Source: Candidatus Kapaibacterium sp. (GTDB lineage Bacteria > Bacteroidota > Ignavibacteria > Kapaibacteriales > UBA2268). Taken from it: a stretch of DNA of 64,000 nt. Shown piece after piece: positions 492 to 7,729 of this stretch; the stretch's first letter is position 1, and each line of letters opens with the position of its first letter. Below the pieces are notes generated by a model. That model searched no databases. It saw only the letters and a list, made by a program, of their open reading frames with translations, and was not told the origin of the DNA. The stretch is taken from positions 86,434-150,433 of the forward strand of contig CALBDO010000008.1 in the NCBI GenBank assembly GCA_937927515.1, read 5' to 3'. Both the position numbers and the translations under genes were made by a program.

Positions 492-2267
492 CTAACCAAC
501 ATTAATGTTTACTTTTGGTAGGGAATAGTTATATTCTTTAGCTTGAGCGAATAAAGATGTGAAGAAAGTTAGAACACCAATTCTACCAATAAACATAATC
601 CAAACAAGCACAAATTTGCTCGTATCGCAAATAAAGAATGTGGTATTACGGCTAAGTCCAACAGTAGAGAAAGCCGAAACTACTTCGAAAAGTAAATTCA
701 ATGGATTTTTATCCGTTTCAAGAAGAATCAAGAAAGAAGTGCCAAGAATTATAACAAAGATTGAAAGCAAGACAATTGCAATAGCTTTTTTTATTGTATC
801 ATAATCGATTTCGCGTGAATAAATCTCGAGGCGGTCTTGTCCACGCAAATACTTATACAAAAAAAGTAAAACAACAGTAAAAGTTGTTGTTTTAATACCT
901 CCACCAGTTCCACCGGGAGAAGCACCAATCCACATTAAAAAAATCAGAATAATAGTGCTAAAAACAGAAAGTTGTTCTATTGCAACGGTGTTGAAGCCAG
1001 CAGTTCTTGCCGTTACCGATTGAAAATATGCATTGAATATTTGCTCTAAAAAGTTATGTCCCAAAACACTTGAATGATAATCCCCCAGATAAATTAAAAT
1101 TGTACCCAGAGCAATCAAAGTCGCAGTCGACACCAAGACAAGTTTGGTCGTAGGAGTAAACCTTTGAGTTTTGTAAGTCCTTTTCTTTCGGAAGCTAAAA
1201 GCAAACATCTCTGTTAAAGATAAAAACCCCAAACCACCCAAGATAATAAGCAATGAAATAGTAAATTTAAAGTTGTAGTTGTTTTTTAAAAGTGGGGTCA
1301 TCAAGTTTTCAGAGAATAAAGAGAAGCCAGCGTTGCAGAAAGCAGAAATAGAATGAAATATTACAAAAAAAGCATCGGATGAGATATTCGAAGTATGATG
1401 CTTTATCGACAAATATAATATTATTGCACCGATAGACTCGATTAAAAAAGTGTAAAAAATAATTCTTTTCAACAAGGAGCCGATTGCAGAAAATGTATCT
1501 GGACTGAGAAATTCCTTCAAAAGAAGTCGCATCTTGATAGTTAAACCACCACTTACAAAAATGAAGAAGAAAGTTGTCAACGTCATAATCCCCAATCCAC
1601 CAATTTGAATAAGCAGAAGTATTATTATCTGCCCAGTTAGAGAAAAATCTTTTGCGGTATCGAGAACAATTAATCCAGTTACACAGACAGCACTTGTCGA
1701 GGTAAATAATGCATCAATATACTTAATAGGCTGACCTGTGGCAGAGACTTTGGGTAAAGATAGCAAACCAGAACCGATTAGAATGAGGAATGCAAAACTA
1801 ACAGCAAGAATCACTCCAGGTGGAACTTTCAGTCTCGTCAATGCTGTACTGTGGCGAACTAATTTAAATATCCCAGAGATAAAAATTGCTAGTTGAGTTA
1901 TTATCAGATATAACAAAGCTATTTGGTCGAAGGAAAGCAAAGGGAAAACAGATTTAATAACAAGTTGAAATGGTCGTTCAAATATGATTTCTATTACCAA
2001 GAAAAGAGTTATTAACAGTTCAACCCAGCGTTGCTTGATGTGTTCCAAAAAATTTTGCAGAGTAAACAATCGTAGTAATTCCTCTACCACAAAAGCATAG
2101 ATTATAACTCTAATTATGAGGCTAATAAATTTCTCTTCCAGACGAGACAGGGGAAAACCTATTAAAAGAATAAAGGTCAGCGAGGAACCTAAACCAATAA
2201 GGAGAAGAAAAATATCGAGAAAAATTTTTAAATTGGTTTTTATTTTTCTGACTGTTGAGATTTTCAT
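492..2267 (-). CDS. TrkH/KtrB-type potassium (or sodium) uptake channel with N-terminal membrane extension
   Basis: This is an integral inner-membrane cation transporter of the Trk/Ktr/HKT superfamily. All four pore-loop segments are visible: TSAVCVTGL (about residue 191), CNAGF, TARTAGFNT and FSTVGLS, each with the filter glycine. The canonical KtrB/TrkH core starts near residue 148. The preceding ~145 residues add several hydrophobic helices, making the protein 591 residues against roughly 450-480 for usual members. A regulatory KtrA/TrkA (RCK) partner is not in the window. A TAnnTTTG -7 element lies 14 bases upstream of the ATG. Potassium is the likely substrate by family, but sodium-coupled or sodium transport cannot be excluded. 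Confidence 0.9.
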   Translation of the reverse strand: MKISTVRKIKTNLKIFLDIFLLLIGLGSSLTFILLIGFPLSRLEEKFISLIIRVIIYAFVVEELLRLFTLQNFLEHIKQRWVELLITLFLVIEIIFERPFQLVIKSVFPLLSFDQIALLYLIITQLAIFISGIFKLVRHSTALTRLKVPPGVILAVSFAFLILIGSGLLSLPKVSATGQPIKYIDALFTSTSAVCVTGLIVLDTAKDFSLTGQIIILLLIQIGGLGIMTLTTFFFIFVSGGLTIKMRLLLKEFLSPDTFSAIGSLLKRIIFYTFLIESIGAIILYLSIKHHTSNISSDAFFVIFHSISAFCNAGFSLFSENLMTPLLKNNYNFKFTISLLIILGGLGFLSLTEMFAFSFRKKRTYKTQRFTPTTKLVLVSTATLIALGTILIYLGDYHSSVLGHNFLEQIFNAYFQSVTARTAGFNTVAIEQLSVFSTIILIFLMWIGASPGGTGGGIKTTTFTVVLLFLYKYLRGQDRLEIYSREIDYDTIKKAIAIVLLSIFVIILGTSFLILLETDKNPLNLLFEVVSAFSTVGLSRNTTFFICDTSKFVLVWIMFIGRIGVLTFFTSLFAQAKEYNYSLPKVNINVG

Positions 2268-2342: not shown

Positions 2343-2948
2343 ATGATAAGGGAGAATTTTTACTTTGATGTAAACAAAAGAATAGAACGAAGCATCGAGA
2401 CAAAAAAGAAAGTAATAGAGCACCTATCCAATATAATTTTAGAAGTAGGAAAAATCCTTGCCGAGCGATTGAAAACTGGTGGAAAAATACTGCTTTGTGG
2501 TAATGGTGGGAGTGCAGCAGACAGCCAACATATAGCAGCAGAGTTAGTTATTCGATTTCGTGGGAGCGTGAAGAGGAAAGCACTTCCTGCCATTGCACTT
2601 ACCGTCGACCCATCGATTATGACAGCTGGTGGCAACGACATAGGATTTGAAAATGTCTTTGCGAGAGAAGTCGAAGCATACGGAAAAGAGGGCGATGTCT
2701 TGGTTGGTATTTCTACAAGCGGTAATTCACCCAACGTTTATAACGCAATTAAAGTAGCAAACTCGCTTGGCTTGATATCTATCGGCTTGCTTGGAGGAGA
2801 TGGTGGCAAGATTGCACCACTTTGCAAACACAAAATTATTGTACCTGAAACCGAAACGGCTTTAATTCAAGAATGCCACATTATGATTGGTCACATATGG
2901 TGTGAAATTATCGAAGAGTATCTCTTCCCCGAGCAATTTCAAAAATGA
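2343..2948 (+). CDS. gmhA: Phosphoheptose isomerase (sedoheptulose 7-phosphate isomerase)
   Basis: This cytoplasmic SIS-domain enzyme converts sedoheptulose 7-phosphate to D-glycero-D-manno-heptose 7-phosphate, the first step of ADP-heptose synthesis for LPS inner core. The sugar-phosphate loops CGNGGSAADSQHIAAEL (about residues 52-68) and GISTSGNSPNV are intact. The C-terminal QECHIMIGHIWCEIIEE helix carries the conserved catalytic histidine region of GmhA. At 201 residues the length is normal. It is the first gene of a plus-strand run; the next gene starts five bases after its stop. A heptosyltransferase-like gene elsewhere in the window (37913-38935) fits a heptose-containing LPS. The ATG at 2343 has no clear Shine-Dalgarno sequence. 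Confidence 0.92.
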   Translation: MIRENFYFDVNKRIERSIETKKKVIEHLSNIILEVGKILAERLKTGGKILLCGNGGSAADSQHIAAELVIRFRGSVKRKALPAIALTVDPSIMTAGGNDIGFENVFAREVEAYGKEGDVLVGISTSGNSPNVYNAIKVANSLGLISIGLLGGDGGKIAPLCKHKIIVPETETALIQECHIMIGHIWCEIIEEYLFPEQFQK

Positions 2949-2952
2949 GCTT

Positions 2953-4254
2953 ATGAAACATTCACAACGAAAGATACGTCTGGCTTGGTATTTCTACGAC
3001 TGGGCAAACTCTGCATTTGTAACGAGCGTAATAACTGTTTTCCTGGGTCCATATTTAACTTCAGTAGCACACAAATCAGCACAGTTATCAGGAGGCTTGT
3101 TTATATTTGGAGTATACATTTACCCGGAGTCTTTGTTTTCTTATGTTGTGTCGCTATCAGTCCTTTTGCAAGTACTTATTTTGCCATTTGTTAGCTCAAT
3201 TGCAGACTTGAGGGATTTGAAAATAAAATTGCTTTATCTTTTCGCATATACTGGGTCTCTGTTTACAATTTCATTGTACATCTTAGATGAAAAGACAATC
3301 ACGTATGGGGTATTTGCTTTTATGATTGCAAACATTTTCTTCGGGGCAAGCATTGTTATGTATAATAGTTTGCTGGTCGAGATTGCTAACCCTAATGAAA
3401 GGGACAAAGTATCCTCCATCGGATGGGCATTTGGGTATGTAGGTGGCGGAATAGTTCTTGGACTCAACCTTATTGTAATTTTCTTTTCAAGTGCATTTGG
3501 AATTTCCAACGAAGAAGCTATTCGTATATCATTTGCGGTTGCTGGCGTATGGTGGCTCCTATTTTCTTTCATTTCTCAAAATTTATTTAAACTTCCTCCT
3601 TCTCGAATTAATAATAGATTTGACAATAATCACAAAAATGCGATAAAACAATTAAAGGACACATTGAAAAACCTTTTCAAGAACAAAAATGCTTTGCTTT
3701 TCTTCATCGCTTTCCTTTTGTTCAACGATGGCGTACAAACCGTGATTATTATTTCCACTCAATTTGGTAAGAGAGAATTAAATTTAAGCATAGAATTTCT
3801 AGTCTTGGTAATTCTTGCAGTACAATTCCTCTCATTCTTTGGGACATTATTAGTCATGAAAATAAATGAATACCTAAAATCCAAAGCAACCTTAATAACA
3901 TGTTTGATTATTTGGAGCTTCATAGCAATTTATGGATATTTTTTCCTTAGAGACGAGATAGGCTTCGTCGTACTTGCGATATTAATTTCATTGGTTCTTG
4001 GTGGCACACAAGCAATTAGCAGGTCGATATTTACAAATTTTATTCCAAGGCAAAGAGAAGCCGAGTACTTCAGCTTTTATGAAATCACTGAAAAGGGCTC
4101 GAGTTGGGTAGGACCCTTGACCTTTGGCTTGGTTCTTCAGTTGACAAAATCATATAGATTAGCTATTTTATCCTTAATTTTGTTTTTTTTAGGTGGTATA
4201 TTTTTCCTTTTAAAGGTTAATTTTTCTGAAGTCGGCACAGGAGAACTTGAATGA
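2953..4254 (+). CDS. MFS transporter, UMF1/Atg22-like family
   Basis: This is a multi-pass inner-membrane permease with about twelve hydrophobic helices over 433 residues. The N-terminal WYFYDWANSAF signature is characteristic of the UMF1 (Atg22-like) branch of the major facilitator superfamily, whose bacterial substrates are largely unknown; the fungal relative Atg22 exports amino acids from the vacuole. I chose the ATG at 2953 rather than the track's 2887. The upstream 22 codons overlap gmhA and are not hydrophobic or conserved-looking, whereas MKHSQRKIRLAWYFYDW gives a standard family start five bases after the gmhA stop. Its stop overlaps the next start as ATGA, so the two are probably translationally coupled. 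The substrate is unknown. Confidence 0.85.
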   Translation: MKHSQRKIRLAWYFYDWANSAFVTSVITVFLGPYLTSVAHKSAQLSGGLFIFGVYIYPESLFSYVVSLSVLLQVLILPFVSSIADLRDLKIKLLYLFAYTGSLFTISLYILDEKTITYGVFAFMIANIFFGASIVMYNSLLVEIANPNERDKVSSIGWAFGYVGGGIVLGLNLIVIFFSSAFGISNEEAIRISFAVAGVWWLLFSFISQNLFKLPPSRINNRFDNNHKNAIKQLKDTLKNLFKNKNALLFFIAFLLFNDGVQTVIIISTQFGKRELNLSIEFLVLVILAVQFLSFFGTLLVMKINEYLKSKATLITCLIIWSFIAIYGYFFLRDEIGFVVLAILISLVLGGTQAISRSIFTNFIPRQREAEYFSFYEITEKGSSWVGPLTFGLVLQLTKSYRLAILSLILFFLGGIFFLLKVNFSEVGTGELE

Positions 4255-6836
4255 ACCTTAACAAATCAATTTATTTAATTATTTTATTAAACCTTTCTAT
4301 TCTAAGCTTCCCCAACCAAGTTTTATCGCAATCTGCAACGAATGAAAATTCTGTCGCAGTTTTCAACTCCGATACTCGAATGGTATTCAAGCTAAATGGT
4401 TACTGGGAGACTTCTATCGAGGGCGATGACTTCATCTCCTATTACTTTCCCAATGTGTTTTACAATTGTAAAGAAGTCAGAATTCGCAAAAGCATACACC
4501 TGGATAAACAATTAATTCCCAACTCTGTCTGGCATTTATACTTTCTTGGGGTAAATGATGAAATTGAAATATATTGGAATGACCAATTCGTTGGCAAATA
4601 TATCTCCGATGGTTCACCATTGTGGATAACTTTGCCTCGGAAAATCAACCTCCGAGAAAACAATCGGCTCGAATTTGTCGTTAAAAGAGCTACTCCATTG
4701 GTATTTCAAATCAGAAAGAATTATTTGTATTACCAAAAAATTGCAACTGGGATACCAAGAGATTTCTTTCTTATACGTACATCGGTCGTTTGGCTTAATG
4801 TTTCCTCCTTGAAATCAGAATTTGAAAGTTTAAACAAGACTACACTCAAAGCGAAAATTAATGTAAGTTCGTTCGAAATAGAGAATCTATTAAGACTTGG
4901 TGGCATTAGTTCTCAGACGTCTCCATATGTTGCATTAAATGCAGAAATATTTCTAAAATATAAAACTACAAAGCAAGTCGTTGCACAAACTTCCACAAGT
5001 ATAAACCTATCATCTTTTAGAAATGTGTATTTAGAGCCATCCCTCGTTGTGATTTCCCCTTTGCTTTGGGAACCAGACAACCCAAATCTTTATGAACTTG
5101 AAGTTAGGCTAACTTGTTCTGGAGTAACGATAGACAATCTGCGTCAAGACATTGGGCTTGCAAAATGGGATACTTACAAAATCAAAGAAACAACAAACTT
5201 CCTTTTAAATGGCAAACCATTTATTTTTAAAGGGGTAGATTATATAGAGGACTTTTACTCTGGTTCTACCGAAGCCACTTTAAAAAAGATAGAAAGCGAC
5301 TTAAAAATTTTAAAATCACTTGGGGCAAATGCTGTTAGATATATTTTCACACCTCCTAATCCATACTTTTTGCAACTGGCAAACAAAATGGGTATGTTGG
5401 TTCTAACAGATTTGCCTGCACATTTCATTCCAGCAAGCATACTAAAGAAGTCGGACCTTTTCGTTCGTTTACAAACCATAACCGATAATATAACTAGAAA
5501 TTGCGGTACCAATCCATCCCTTTTTGCAATTGGAATTGCCGATGGCTTGGACTATTCCAATTCAATTGTCACTGAATACATCCACAAAATGACTAAATGG
5601 ATAGACAATTACCCGCAAGTGAGAAAATACGCAACAGTTGTTATCGGACAAAAACCGAGCTCACTTGAATCCTTAGACTTTTTAATTGCTAAAGATAATG
5701 TTAGTATCACCGAATACGAAAACATTTTAAACTATCTTAAGAAGTTTTGCGCCACTACGAAGATACCGGTGCTTTATAACTTTGGAACTATTATCGACCC
5801 AAACAACCACAAAGGTTACAATGACATTATGTCTCTGGAATACCAAGCATACTATTTAAATAGTCGATATCTCCTCCGAAATCAAATAGGAAATGCTGGG
5901 GTACTCTATTGGTCGTACAATGATTATTTTACTGAAAACCCACTTGGAAAATCTGCAATTAATGAACCATTTGTTTGTTACTCTGGGATAATAGGTAATA
6001 AAAGTCAAAGACTATCATTTAATATGCTAAAAGCTTTATTCAACAACGAAGAGACACCTGTTATTAATCCTGGACAGGTAGAGCCTGATTTTCCAGTTAT
6101 ATATTTAATTGCTGGGGGATTTGCATTCCTTCTTTGGGGAATCCTAATCAATCGAAGCAGAAGATTCAGAGAACATACATTTCGCTCCCTATTCCGAACA
6201 TACAACTTTTTTGCCGACATCCGCGACCGACGCTTAATTTCTAATTTTCAAACTGGGGTTTTTGGAATTACTCTTTCAACAATCCTTGCACTTTACTTGG
6301 CTTCTATTCTAAGTTATTGGAAAACGAATGAAAGTATTCATCATCTTTTGAACTTGTTATTAGTAAACGACTTTATTAAAGAATGGACTTATAGATTCTC
6401 TTGGAAAGTGGATTATTTCATTATCATCTTGACAATTTTAATTTTTATCAAGATAAATATCCTGGCTTTGCTACTAAAAGTCGCATCGCTCTTTGTCCGC
6501 TCGAAAATCTTTTTAAGTGATACATTCAAGATGGTGATTTGGTCTGGGGCACCTCTTTTATTTTTCCTACCAATCTCAATTTTTATCAATAGGTTACTTC
6601 CAATTTCACCAATTTTGGCTAATGTTTCTAATTTCTTACTAATTCTATTTCTGCTTCTCTGGTTACAAAGGCTTCTTAAATCAATTTGGATTGTTTTCGA
6701 TGTTCGCCCTTCAAAAGTTTATGCAGTATCATTATTTGTCCTCTTCTTTGTATGTACTGCCTATTTTTCTTATATTCAATATAAATTTTCATTTTTTGAG
6801 TATGTTTCACAATATTTAAAATTATATTTCTTATGA
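4251..6836 (+). CDS. GH2-like (beta-galactosidase fold) protein fused to a C-terminal membrane domain; probable pseudoenzyme
   Basis: An N-terminal signal peptide (residues about 1-26) precedes a jelly-roll and immunoglobulin-like region, then a TIM-barrel-like part from about residue 310 (FLLNGKPFIFKGVDY, then SLGANAVRYIFTPP), the order seen in glycoside hydrolase family 2. The acid/base site, normally Asn-Glu after a HPS-like motif, reads NPSLFAIGIADG. The nucleophile site, normally an EYG-like motif, reads IPVLYNFGT. Both catalytic glutamates therefore seem absent, although the WSYNDY strand near the barrel end is kept. From about residue 625 there are roughly six hydrophobic helices, so the solute-facing domain is tethered to the inner membrane. 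It overlaps the MFS gene before it and purC after it by ATGA. It may bind a carbohydrate or glycoconjugate rather than cleave it; that role is inference. Confidence 0.75.
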   Translation: MNLNKSIYLIILLNLSILSFPNQVLSQSATNENSVAVFNSDTRMVFKLNGYWETSIEGDDFISYYFPNVFYNCKEVRIRKSIHLDKQLIPNSVWHLYFLGVNDEIEIYWNDQFVGKYISDGSPLWITLPRKINLRENNRLEFVVKRATPLVFQIRKNYLYYQKIATGIPRDFFLIRTSVVWLNVSSLKSEFESLNKTTLKAKINVSSFEIENLLRLGGISSQTSPYVALNAEIFLKYKTTKQVVAQTSTSINLSSFRNVYLEPSLVVISPLLWEPDNPNLYELEVRLTCSGVTIDNLRQDIGLAKWDTYKIKETTNFLLNGKPFIFKGVDYIEDFYSGSTEATLKKIESDLKILKSLGANAVRYIFTPPNPYFLQLANKMGMLVLTDLPAHFIPASILKKSDLFVRLQTITDNITRNCGTNPSLFAIGIADGLDYSNSIVTEYIHKMTKWIDNYPQVRKYATVVIGQKPSSLESLDFLIAKDNVSITEYENILNYLKKFCATTKIPVLYNFGTIIDPNNHKGYNDIMSLEYQAYYLNSRYLLRNQIGNAGVLYWSYNDYFTENPLGKSAINEPFVCYSGIIGNKSQRLSFNMLKALFNNEETPVINPGQVEPDFPVIYLIAGGFAFLLWGILINRSRRFREHTFRSLFRTYNFFADIRDRRLISNFQTGVFGITLSTILALYLASILSYWKTNESIHHLLNLLLVNDFIKEWTYRFSWKVDYFIIILTILIFIKINILALLLKVASLFVRSKIFLSDTFKMVIWSGAPLLFFLPISIFINRLLPISPILANVSNFLLILFLLLWLQRLLKSIWIVFDVRPSKVYAVSLFVLFFVCTAYFSYIQYKFSFFEYVSQYLKLYFL

Positions 6837-7729
6837 CCACCATTTACAAAACCAACTTTGAGGACATTAAGCTAAAAAACCGCGGAAAAGTTCGCGACAT
6901 TTATGAGTTCGACAATTTTTTGCTTTTCGTTGCCACCGACCGCATCTCTGCTTTCGACGTGGTTATGAACGAACCGATTCCTTCTAAAGGAAAAATCCTA
7001 AATCAAATTTCCAAATTTTGGTTGACAAAAACGAAAGACATAATTGCTAATCATTACATAACCGATGATGTAAGGCAATATCCAAGCGCATGTCAGAAGT
7101 ATGCAGATGTTCTCGATGGAAGGTCTATGCTTGTAAAAAAGTGCAAACCATTGCCAATCGAGGCAATAGTTCGTGGTTACATTGCTGGCTCTGGTTGGAA
7201 GGAATACCAAAAAACTCAGTCCATCTGTGGCATACCACTACCCGAAGGATTACAAGAATTCCAGAAATTACCCGAGCCAATTTACACCCCATCGACCAAA
7301 GAAGAAATTGGTCACGACATTAACGTGAATTTTGATTATACTGTGAACCTATTGGGACAAGAATTAGCAAATAGGATTAAAGAGACCTCTCTTAACTTAT
7401 TTAAATTTGCCTCGAGTTACCTCGAAGGCAAAGGCTTAATACTTGCTGATACTAAATTTGAATTTGGTTTGGACAACAATGGCAACTTAACACTTATCGA
7501 CGAGGTCCTAACACCCGACTCCTCGAGGTTTTGGCTTTCGGAGGATTATGCGCCCGGTAAGCCACAATATAACTTCGATAAACAAGTTCTTCGAGATTAT
7601 TTGGAATCTTTGGCTTGGGACAAGGTACCTCCTCCACCCCCGCTACCACCAGAAATAATCAATAAAATCGTCGAAAAATATAAAGAAGCTTTTAAAAGGA
7701 TTATAGGCAAAGACTTTGATGAAAACTAA
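6833..7729 (+). CDS. purC: Phosphoribosylaminoimidazole-succinocarboxamide synthase (SAICAR synthase)
   Basis: This cytoplasmic purine-biosynthesis enzyme condenses CAIR with aspartate using ATP to give SAICAR. The N-terminus has the family nucleotide-binding pattern (KNRGKVRDIYEF then VATDRISAFDVV). The central segment EAIVRGYIAGSGWKEYQK and the C-terminal LIDEVLTPDSSRFW are diagnostic. The length of 298 residues is typical of the single-domain, yeast-like form. A proline-rich patch, PPPPPLPPE, sits near residue 265, where related enzymes also have prolines. The start overlaps the preceding stop in ATGA, and the rodA start lies inside its last codons. No other purine gene is in the window. 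Confidence 0.96.
   Translation: MTTIYKTNFEDIKLKNRGKVRDIYEFDNFLLFVATDRISAFDVVMNEPIPSKGKILNQISKFWLTKTKDIIANHYITDDVRQYPSACQKYADVLDGRSMLVKKCKPLPIEAIVRGYIAGSGWKEYQKTQSICGIPLPEGLQEFQKLPEPIYTPSTKEEIGHDINVNFDYTVNLLGQELANRIKETSLNLFKFASSYLEGKGLILADTKFEFGLDNNGNLTLIDEVLTPDSSRFWLSEDYAPGKPQYNFDKQVLRDYLESLAWDKVPPPPPLPPEIINKIVEKYKEAFKRIIGKDFDEN

Follow-up and report, generated by a model that had tools for sequence, protein, structure and literature searches.

The open reading frame at 4251-6836 (+) of the window, which here denotes the whole 64,000-nt stretch of Candidatus Kapaibacterium sp. DNA that was analyzed, encodes an 861-aa protein that combines the fold of glycoside hydrolase family 2 (GH2), in which both catalytic residues are lost, with a C-terminal Yip1-like membrane module. 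The gene is widely retained as a single copy, and across its relatives the ectodomain is lost stepwise while the membrane module stays constant. We favor, with a probability of roughly 0.55, the reading that this is a core envelope protein whose pseudoglycosidase ectodomain binds a partner or a glycan and positions or regulates the Yip1-like membrane module. Since almost all relatives in the class have retained a single copy, the protein has probably become a permanent component of the cell envelope and not an enzyme. A scan of named genomes returned only two close relatives of the source genome, the closest being Candidatus Kapaibacterium Ch6 (56% identity).

Fold and catalytic positions of the ectodomain

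The jelly-roll, sandwich and barrel order of the original prediction is borne out by Pfam and by the alignment of a profile built from 62 orthologues to solved structures (Table 1). In the Pfam scan, the protein matches PF00703 (1.9e-8, residues 229-303) and PF02836 (8.9e-10, residues 311-388), the latter over the N-terminal part of the barrel alone. Against solved GH2 enzymes, the orthologue profile gives an end-to-end alignment (positions 37-618 of the profile, best 3.8e-62), and jelly roll, sandwich and TIM barrel follow each other as expected for the GH2 fold superfamily. The domain order is thus that of beta-galactosidase and beta-glucuronidase, from which the window protein and most members differ by the absence of both glutamates and by the added C-terminal membrane module. 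The GH2 assignment rests on the profile alignment because the AlphaFold models are too poor, with a pLDDT of 37 for the full protein (three-sequence input), which is useless for superposition, and of 63 for the membrane part. None of the Pfam and NCBIfam models tested is specific to the family. At the N-terminus, the amino acid composition suggests signal cleavage after about residue 26-27.

Table 1. Features of the GH2-membrane protein and its flanking genes, in window coordinates.
Feature	Position	Strand	Basis
UMF1/ATG22-type MFS permease gene, upstream (first possible start)	2887..4254	+	PF11700 1.3e-85
Signal-peptide-like N-terminus, residues 1-27	4251..4331	+	Hydrophobic segment 7-25
GH2 jelly-roll domain, about residues 40-185	4368..4805	+	Profile alignment to solved GH2s; PF02837 in orthologue L050
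GH2 immunoglobulin-like sandwich, about residues 186-305	4806..5165	+	PF00703 at 229-303
GH2 TIM barrel, about residues 306-600	5166..6050	+	PF02836 at 311-388; entire barrel in profile alignment
Asp431-Gly432, site of the active Asn-Glu acid/base pair	5541..5546	+	Profile alignment
Asn510, site of the catalytic nucleophile Glu	5778..5780	+	Profile alignment
Family motif NHKGYNDIMSLEYQA, residues 519-533, consensus NxNGYSDPxSxEAQA	5805..5849	+	Gly522/Ser528 invariant, Gln532 65/66
Yip1-like membrane module, six predicted helices, residues 612-861	6084..6833	+	Hydropathy, Yip1 matches, charge pattern
Conserved basic loop between helices 1 and 2, residues 634-664, predicted cytoplasmic	6150..6242	+	Conservation, positive-inside
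purC (SAICAR synthetase), downstream, 4-nt overlap	6833..7729	+	PF01259

In the profile alignment, the acid/base position (SVGNE in 6ncy, SVANE in 6xxw) is occupied by Gly432, with Asp431 replacing the usual Asn, and the nucleophile Glu of active enzymes (TEFG, SEFG) aligns to Asn510 of LYNFGT. A catalytic GH2 enzyme has a Glu after the Asn and a nucleophile Glu; the window protein has Gly432 and Asn510 instead. LYNFGT had been named as the nucleophile site from the outset. The acid/base Glu is missing as predicted, while the proposed Ala430-Asp431 pair lies one residue off, the correct pair being Asp431-Gly432. In the proposed comparison of the substituted residues across relatives, 74 of 96 members have neither glutamate and 5 have both, while 17 keep one catalytic Glu (the nucleophile in 14, the acid/base in 3). 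As judged from sequence, the two-glutamate GH2 reaction is beyond the ectodomain of the window protein and those of most relatives.

All five members with both glutamates belong to one family, f23 (L068, L088-L091). These proteins look like active, membrane-anchored GH2 enzymes, and the entire Pfam barrel matches in an f23 member (3.5e-49). They provide a natural control for the dead members.

Animal Klotho is a membrane-anchored, GH1-like pseudoglycosidase that is used for binding. Like the window protein, it presents on a membrane anchor a glycosidase fold whose catalytic residues are incomplete, but it represents another GH family, has a single-helix anchor and stems from an unrelated lineage. 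Pseudoenzymes often originate as extra copies next to a sister gene that is still active. Here, however, the inactive form has no other GH2 match beside it in the genome and is a near-universal single-copy gene of the class. No GH2-Yip1 protein and no related pseudoenzyme turned up in literature searches.

The membrane module

Six hydrophobic segments (residues 615-633, 669-687, 724-742, 761-779, 788-806 and 823-841) lie C-terminal of the barrel, in agreement with the about six membrane helices that had been proposed to follow the GH2 fold. Positive charges amount to 17-22 per 100 residues in the predicted cytoplasmic loops vs. 5-12 outside. Helix 1 is predicted to be a tether, and the five helices behind it to form a module whose N side faces in and whose C end faces out. 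Hydropathy and charge pattern thus predict the Yip1 topology of five helices, cytoplasmic N side and outer C end, as described for eukaryotic YIPF proteins (PMC6682643). The Yip1 model (PF04893) matches 52 of 69 members at E up to 0.1. While the transmembrane part of the window protein stays below the Pfam gathering cut-off (12.4 bits, cut-off 28.6), three free-standing modules of family f19 exceed it (29.7-32.8 bits).

Apart from its extra tether helix and the large GH2 ectodomain, the window family differs from Yip1/YIPF proteins in its conserved loop, which is unlike the YIPF motifs that have been described (PMC6682643). This basic loop between helices 1 and 2 (consensus NRxRRFREYxxRALxRPYNFYADIRDQR) is the most conserved region tested, with a mean of 0.557 vs. 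0.336 for the barrel. When the membrane part was searched as a profile against the PDB, nothing but weak matches to cytochrome oxidase subunit 2 (E 0.027) came up, and we rejected this kinship as a chance match. A PDB fold search with the model of the membrane part found no match (best E 1.4).

Distribution and evolution of the family

Each of the 60 related genomes searched contains relatives of the protein, which are with few exceptions full-length and almost always present as a single copy. Hence, the GH2-membrane architecture is not a product of chance. At the level of the class, 95 of 100 genomes have a match if those to the membrane module only are counted in, and the gene is also found in families f28, f31 and f46, which belong to the same phylum but lie outside the class. 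In a tree rooted on active GH2 enzymes of the same phylum, the family forms one clade (SH-aLRT 100). This quick tree, which has long branches and an uncertain inner order, requires nine catalytic-state changes. The simplest reading would be an active ancestor and repeated loss of the catalytic residues; given the uncertain inner branches, a regain of the glutamates in f23 might be an alternative to loss.

The ectodomain is reduced to different degrees. Proteins of families f35, f47 and f49 comprise about 540-620 aa and consist of a barrel remnant and the membrane module, without jelly roll or sandwich; their alignment to the family spans barrel and module alike (hhalign probability 99.9, E 1.1e-35). 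In f19, the ectodomain is gone and the membrane module stands alone, with smc still adjoining in the three loci examined; searches of five further f19 genomes gave no match. As the ectodomain is trimmed or lost in these lineages while the module stays, the membrane module is the constant part. Apparently active, half-dead, dead, trimmed and ectodomain-free forms thus occur in one lineage, which makes the family a good natural series for how an enzyme turns into a structural or regulatory part.

Barrel-only relatives carrying a Yip1-like module are seen at L141-L144; the three scanned (L141, L143 and L144) have no Pfam match, and L144 has no NCBIfam match either. One genome of the order, which consists of a single contig, has the gene broken up into three frames (L063, G037:C1:1992542-1994907), reflecting either a recent pseudogene or an assembly error; G053, which has the same genus code, carries a nearly full-length copy without stops. 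In two f22 copies (G101:C13:224068-226605 and G116:C74:4640-7180), the search match runs through one TAA stop, which may stem from a frameshift or an error or from effects at the match ends.

Functional readings and gene neighborhood

In the favored reading, the signal peptide would export the protein, the GH2-derived ectodomain would sit outside the inner membrane, and helix 1 would tether it, followed by the conserved basic cytoplasmic loop and the Yip1-like five-helix module. The ectodomain would most likely be a module of fixed shape that binds a partner or a glycan and thereby positions or regulates the membrane module. We infer this location, the binding role and a link to envelope upkeep. 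The neighbors of the gene are housekeeping genes without a common envelope theme, which counts against this explanation. Among the 91 members without both glutamates, conservation reaches about the 95-100 percentile at Gly522, Tyr523, Ser528, Gln532 (99th percentile), Asp558, Trp764 and Arg807 and in the loop 638-659.

The original prediction of a carbohydrate-binding sensor would correspond to a glycan-sensing receptor, in which an extracellular sugar, bound by the dead GH2 domain, triggers a signal through the membrane module. Retention of the GH2 fold although the catalytic residues go would fit such a receptor, as would the highly conserved basic loop, which could bind a cytoplasmic partner. 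RsgI-type anti-sigma factors provide an analogy, as they carry an extracellular carbohydrate-related domain on a membrane protein (PMC12203970), and polysaccharide sensing by the ectodomain is known for the RsgI factors of Clostridium thermocellum (PMC12203970; PMC4711584). The window protein, however, has no kinase, anti-sigma or other output domain; it also differs from RsgI in its multi-helix module and in the absence of an adjoining sigma factor gene. Moreover, the gene is a near-universal single copy next to housekeeping genes and outside sugar-use loci, and f19 dispenses with the ectodomain. Conservation of the loops on the old active-site face does not significantly exceed that of the remaining barrel (p = 0.11, a weak test because the strand limits stem partly from a poor model), and thus a retained sugar pocket under selection is unsupported. 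Taken together, we regard a glycan receptor as unlikely.

The protein might still be an enzyme, i.e., a GH2 with relocated acidic residues or a different reaction. Several acidic columns of the barrel are indeed kept (Asp/Glu387 in 98%, Asp476 in 94%, Asp558 in 95% and Glu530 in 86%), and the five f23 members with Asn-Glu and nucleophile Glu look active. Active GH2s, however, have Asp/Glu387, Asp476 and Asp558 to the same extent, and these residues are therefore not evident replacements. Glu530 sits in the NxNGYSDPxSxEAQA motif after the nucleophile strand. Furthermore, both catalytic columns vary freely outside the f23 five (position 432 at the 65th and position 510 at the 25th conservation percentile of the 91 members), and retained catalysis in the window protein is rather improbable.

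It is similarly doubtful that the GH2 part is a decaying relic free of selection and that the membrane module alone matters. The reduced or lost ectodomains of f19, f35, f47 and f49 would agree with decay, and the protein evolves faster than its neighbors, with identities within the genus of 59 to 45% vs. 79 to 75% for PurC. Nearly all members nonetheless have full-length open frames, and Trp52, Trp273, Pro278, Tyr281, Gly381, Gly522 and Ser528 in the GH2 part are invariant across the class.

In 23 of the 24 loci from outside the order, the gene is directly followed by smc on the same strand, mostly after a gap of less than 30 nt. Inside the order this holds for none of 19 loci, the smc of the window genome lies on another contig, and neither the order nor the barrel-only types have an SMC match near the gene. 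Beyond smc, the next genes are retained less often (in 14 and 13 loci vs. 23), although some of the loci end before these genes could be seen. The arrangement may be an old operon without a common task that was lost in the order of the window. Alternatively, the Yip1-like module and basic loop could form an ancient core membrane factor working with SMC or in chromosome-adjacent membrane growth, for which the ex-enzyme GH2 ectodomain would have been turned into an outward-facing regulator, later trimmed or dropped in several lineages; we consider this quite unlikely. With its steady position ahead of smc in loci from outside the order, the gene offers a specific partner that can be tested.

The gene shares 4 nt with the upstream MFS gene and another 4 nt with the downstream purC. 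A partnership with the UMF1 permease on one substrate, in line with the originally proposed functional link, could draw on the overlap with the permease gene, which is kept in all five genus members, but the suggested check of the gene pair shows the permease in only 5 of 43 neighborhoods, all from the genus of the window, and in none of the other 38, such that the transporter-partner idea is unsupported and very improbable.

Downstream, purC is the next gene in 8 of the 19 loci of the order and the usual follower in the family of the window, in which an FtsW/RodA-type gene often also follows. In other families of the order, the following genes are, as we take it from their sequence, hrcA and grpE. 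In several families of the order (L054, L057-L059, L063), the gene is divergent from a gene of roughly 2,200 aa, presumably encoding a secretion-related surface protein of the SprA/Sov type. Near the cluster, a gene at 492-2267 (-) of the window, kept in most of the genus, encodes a 591-aa membrane protein that we take to resemble a TrkH-type ion transporter.
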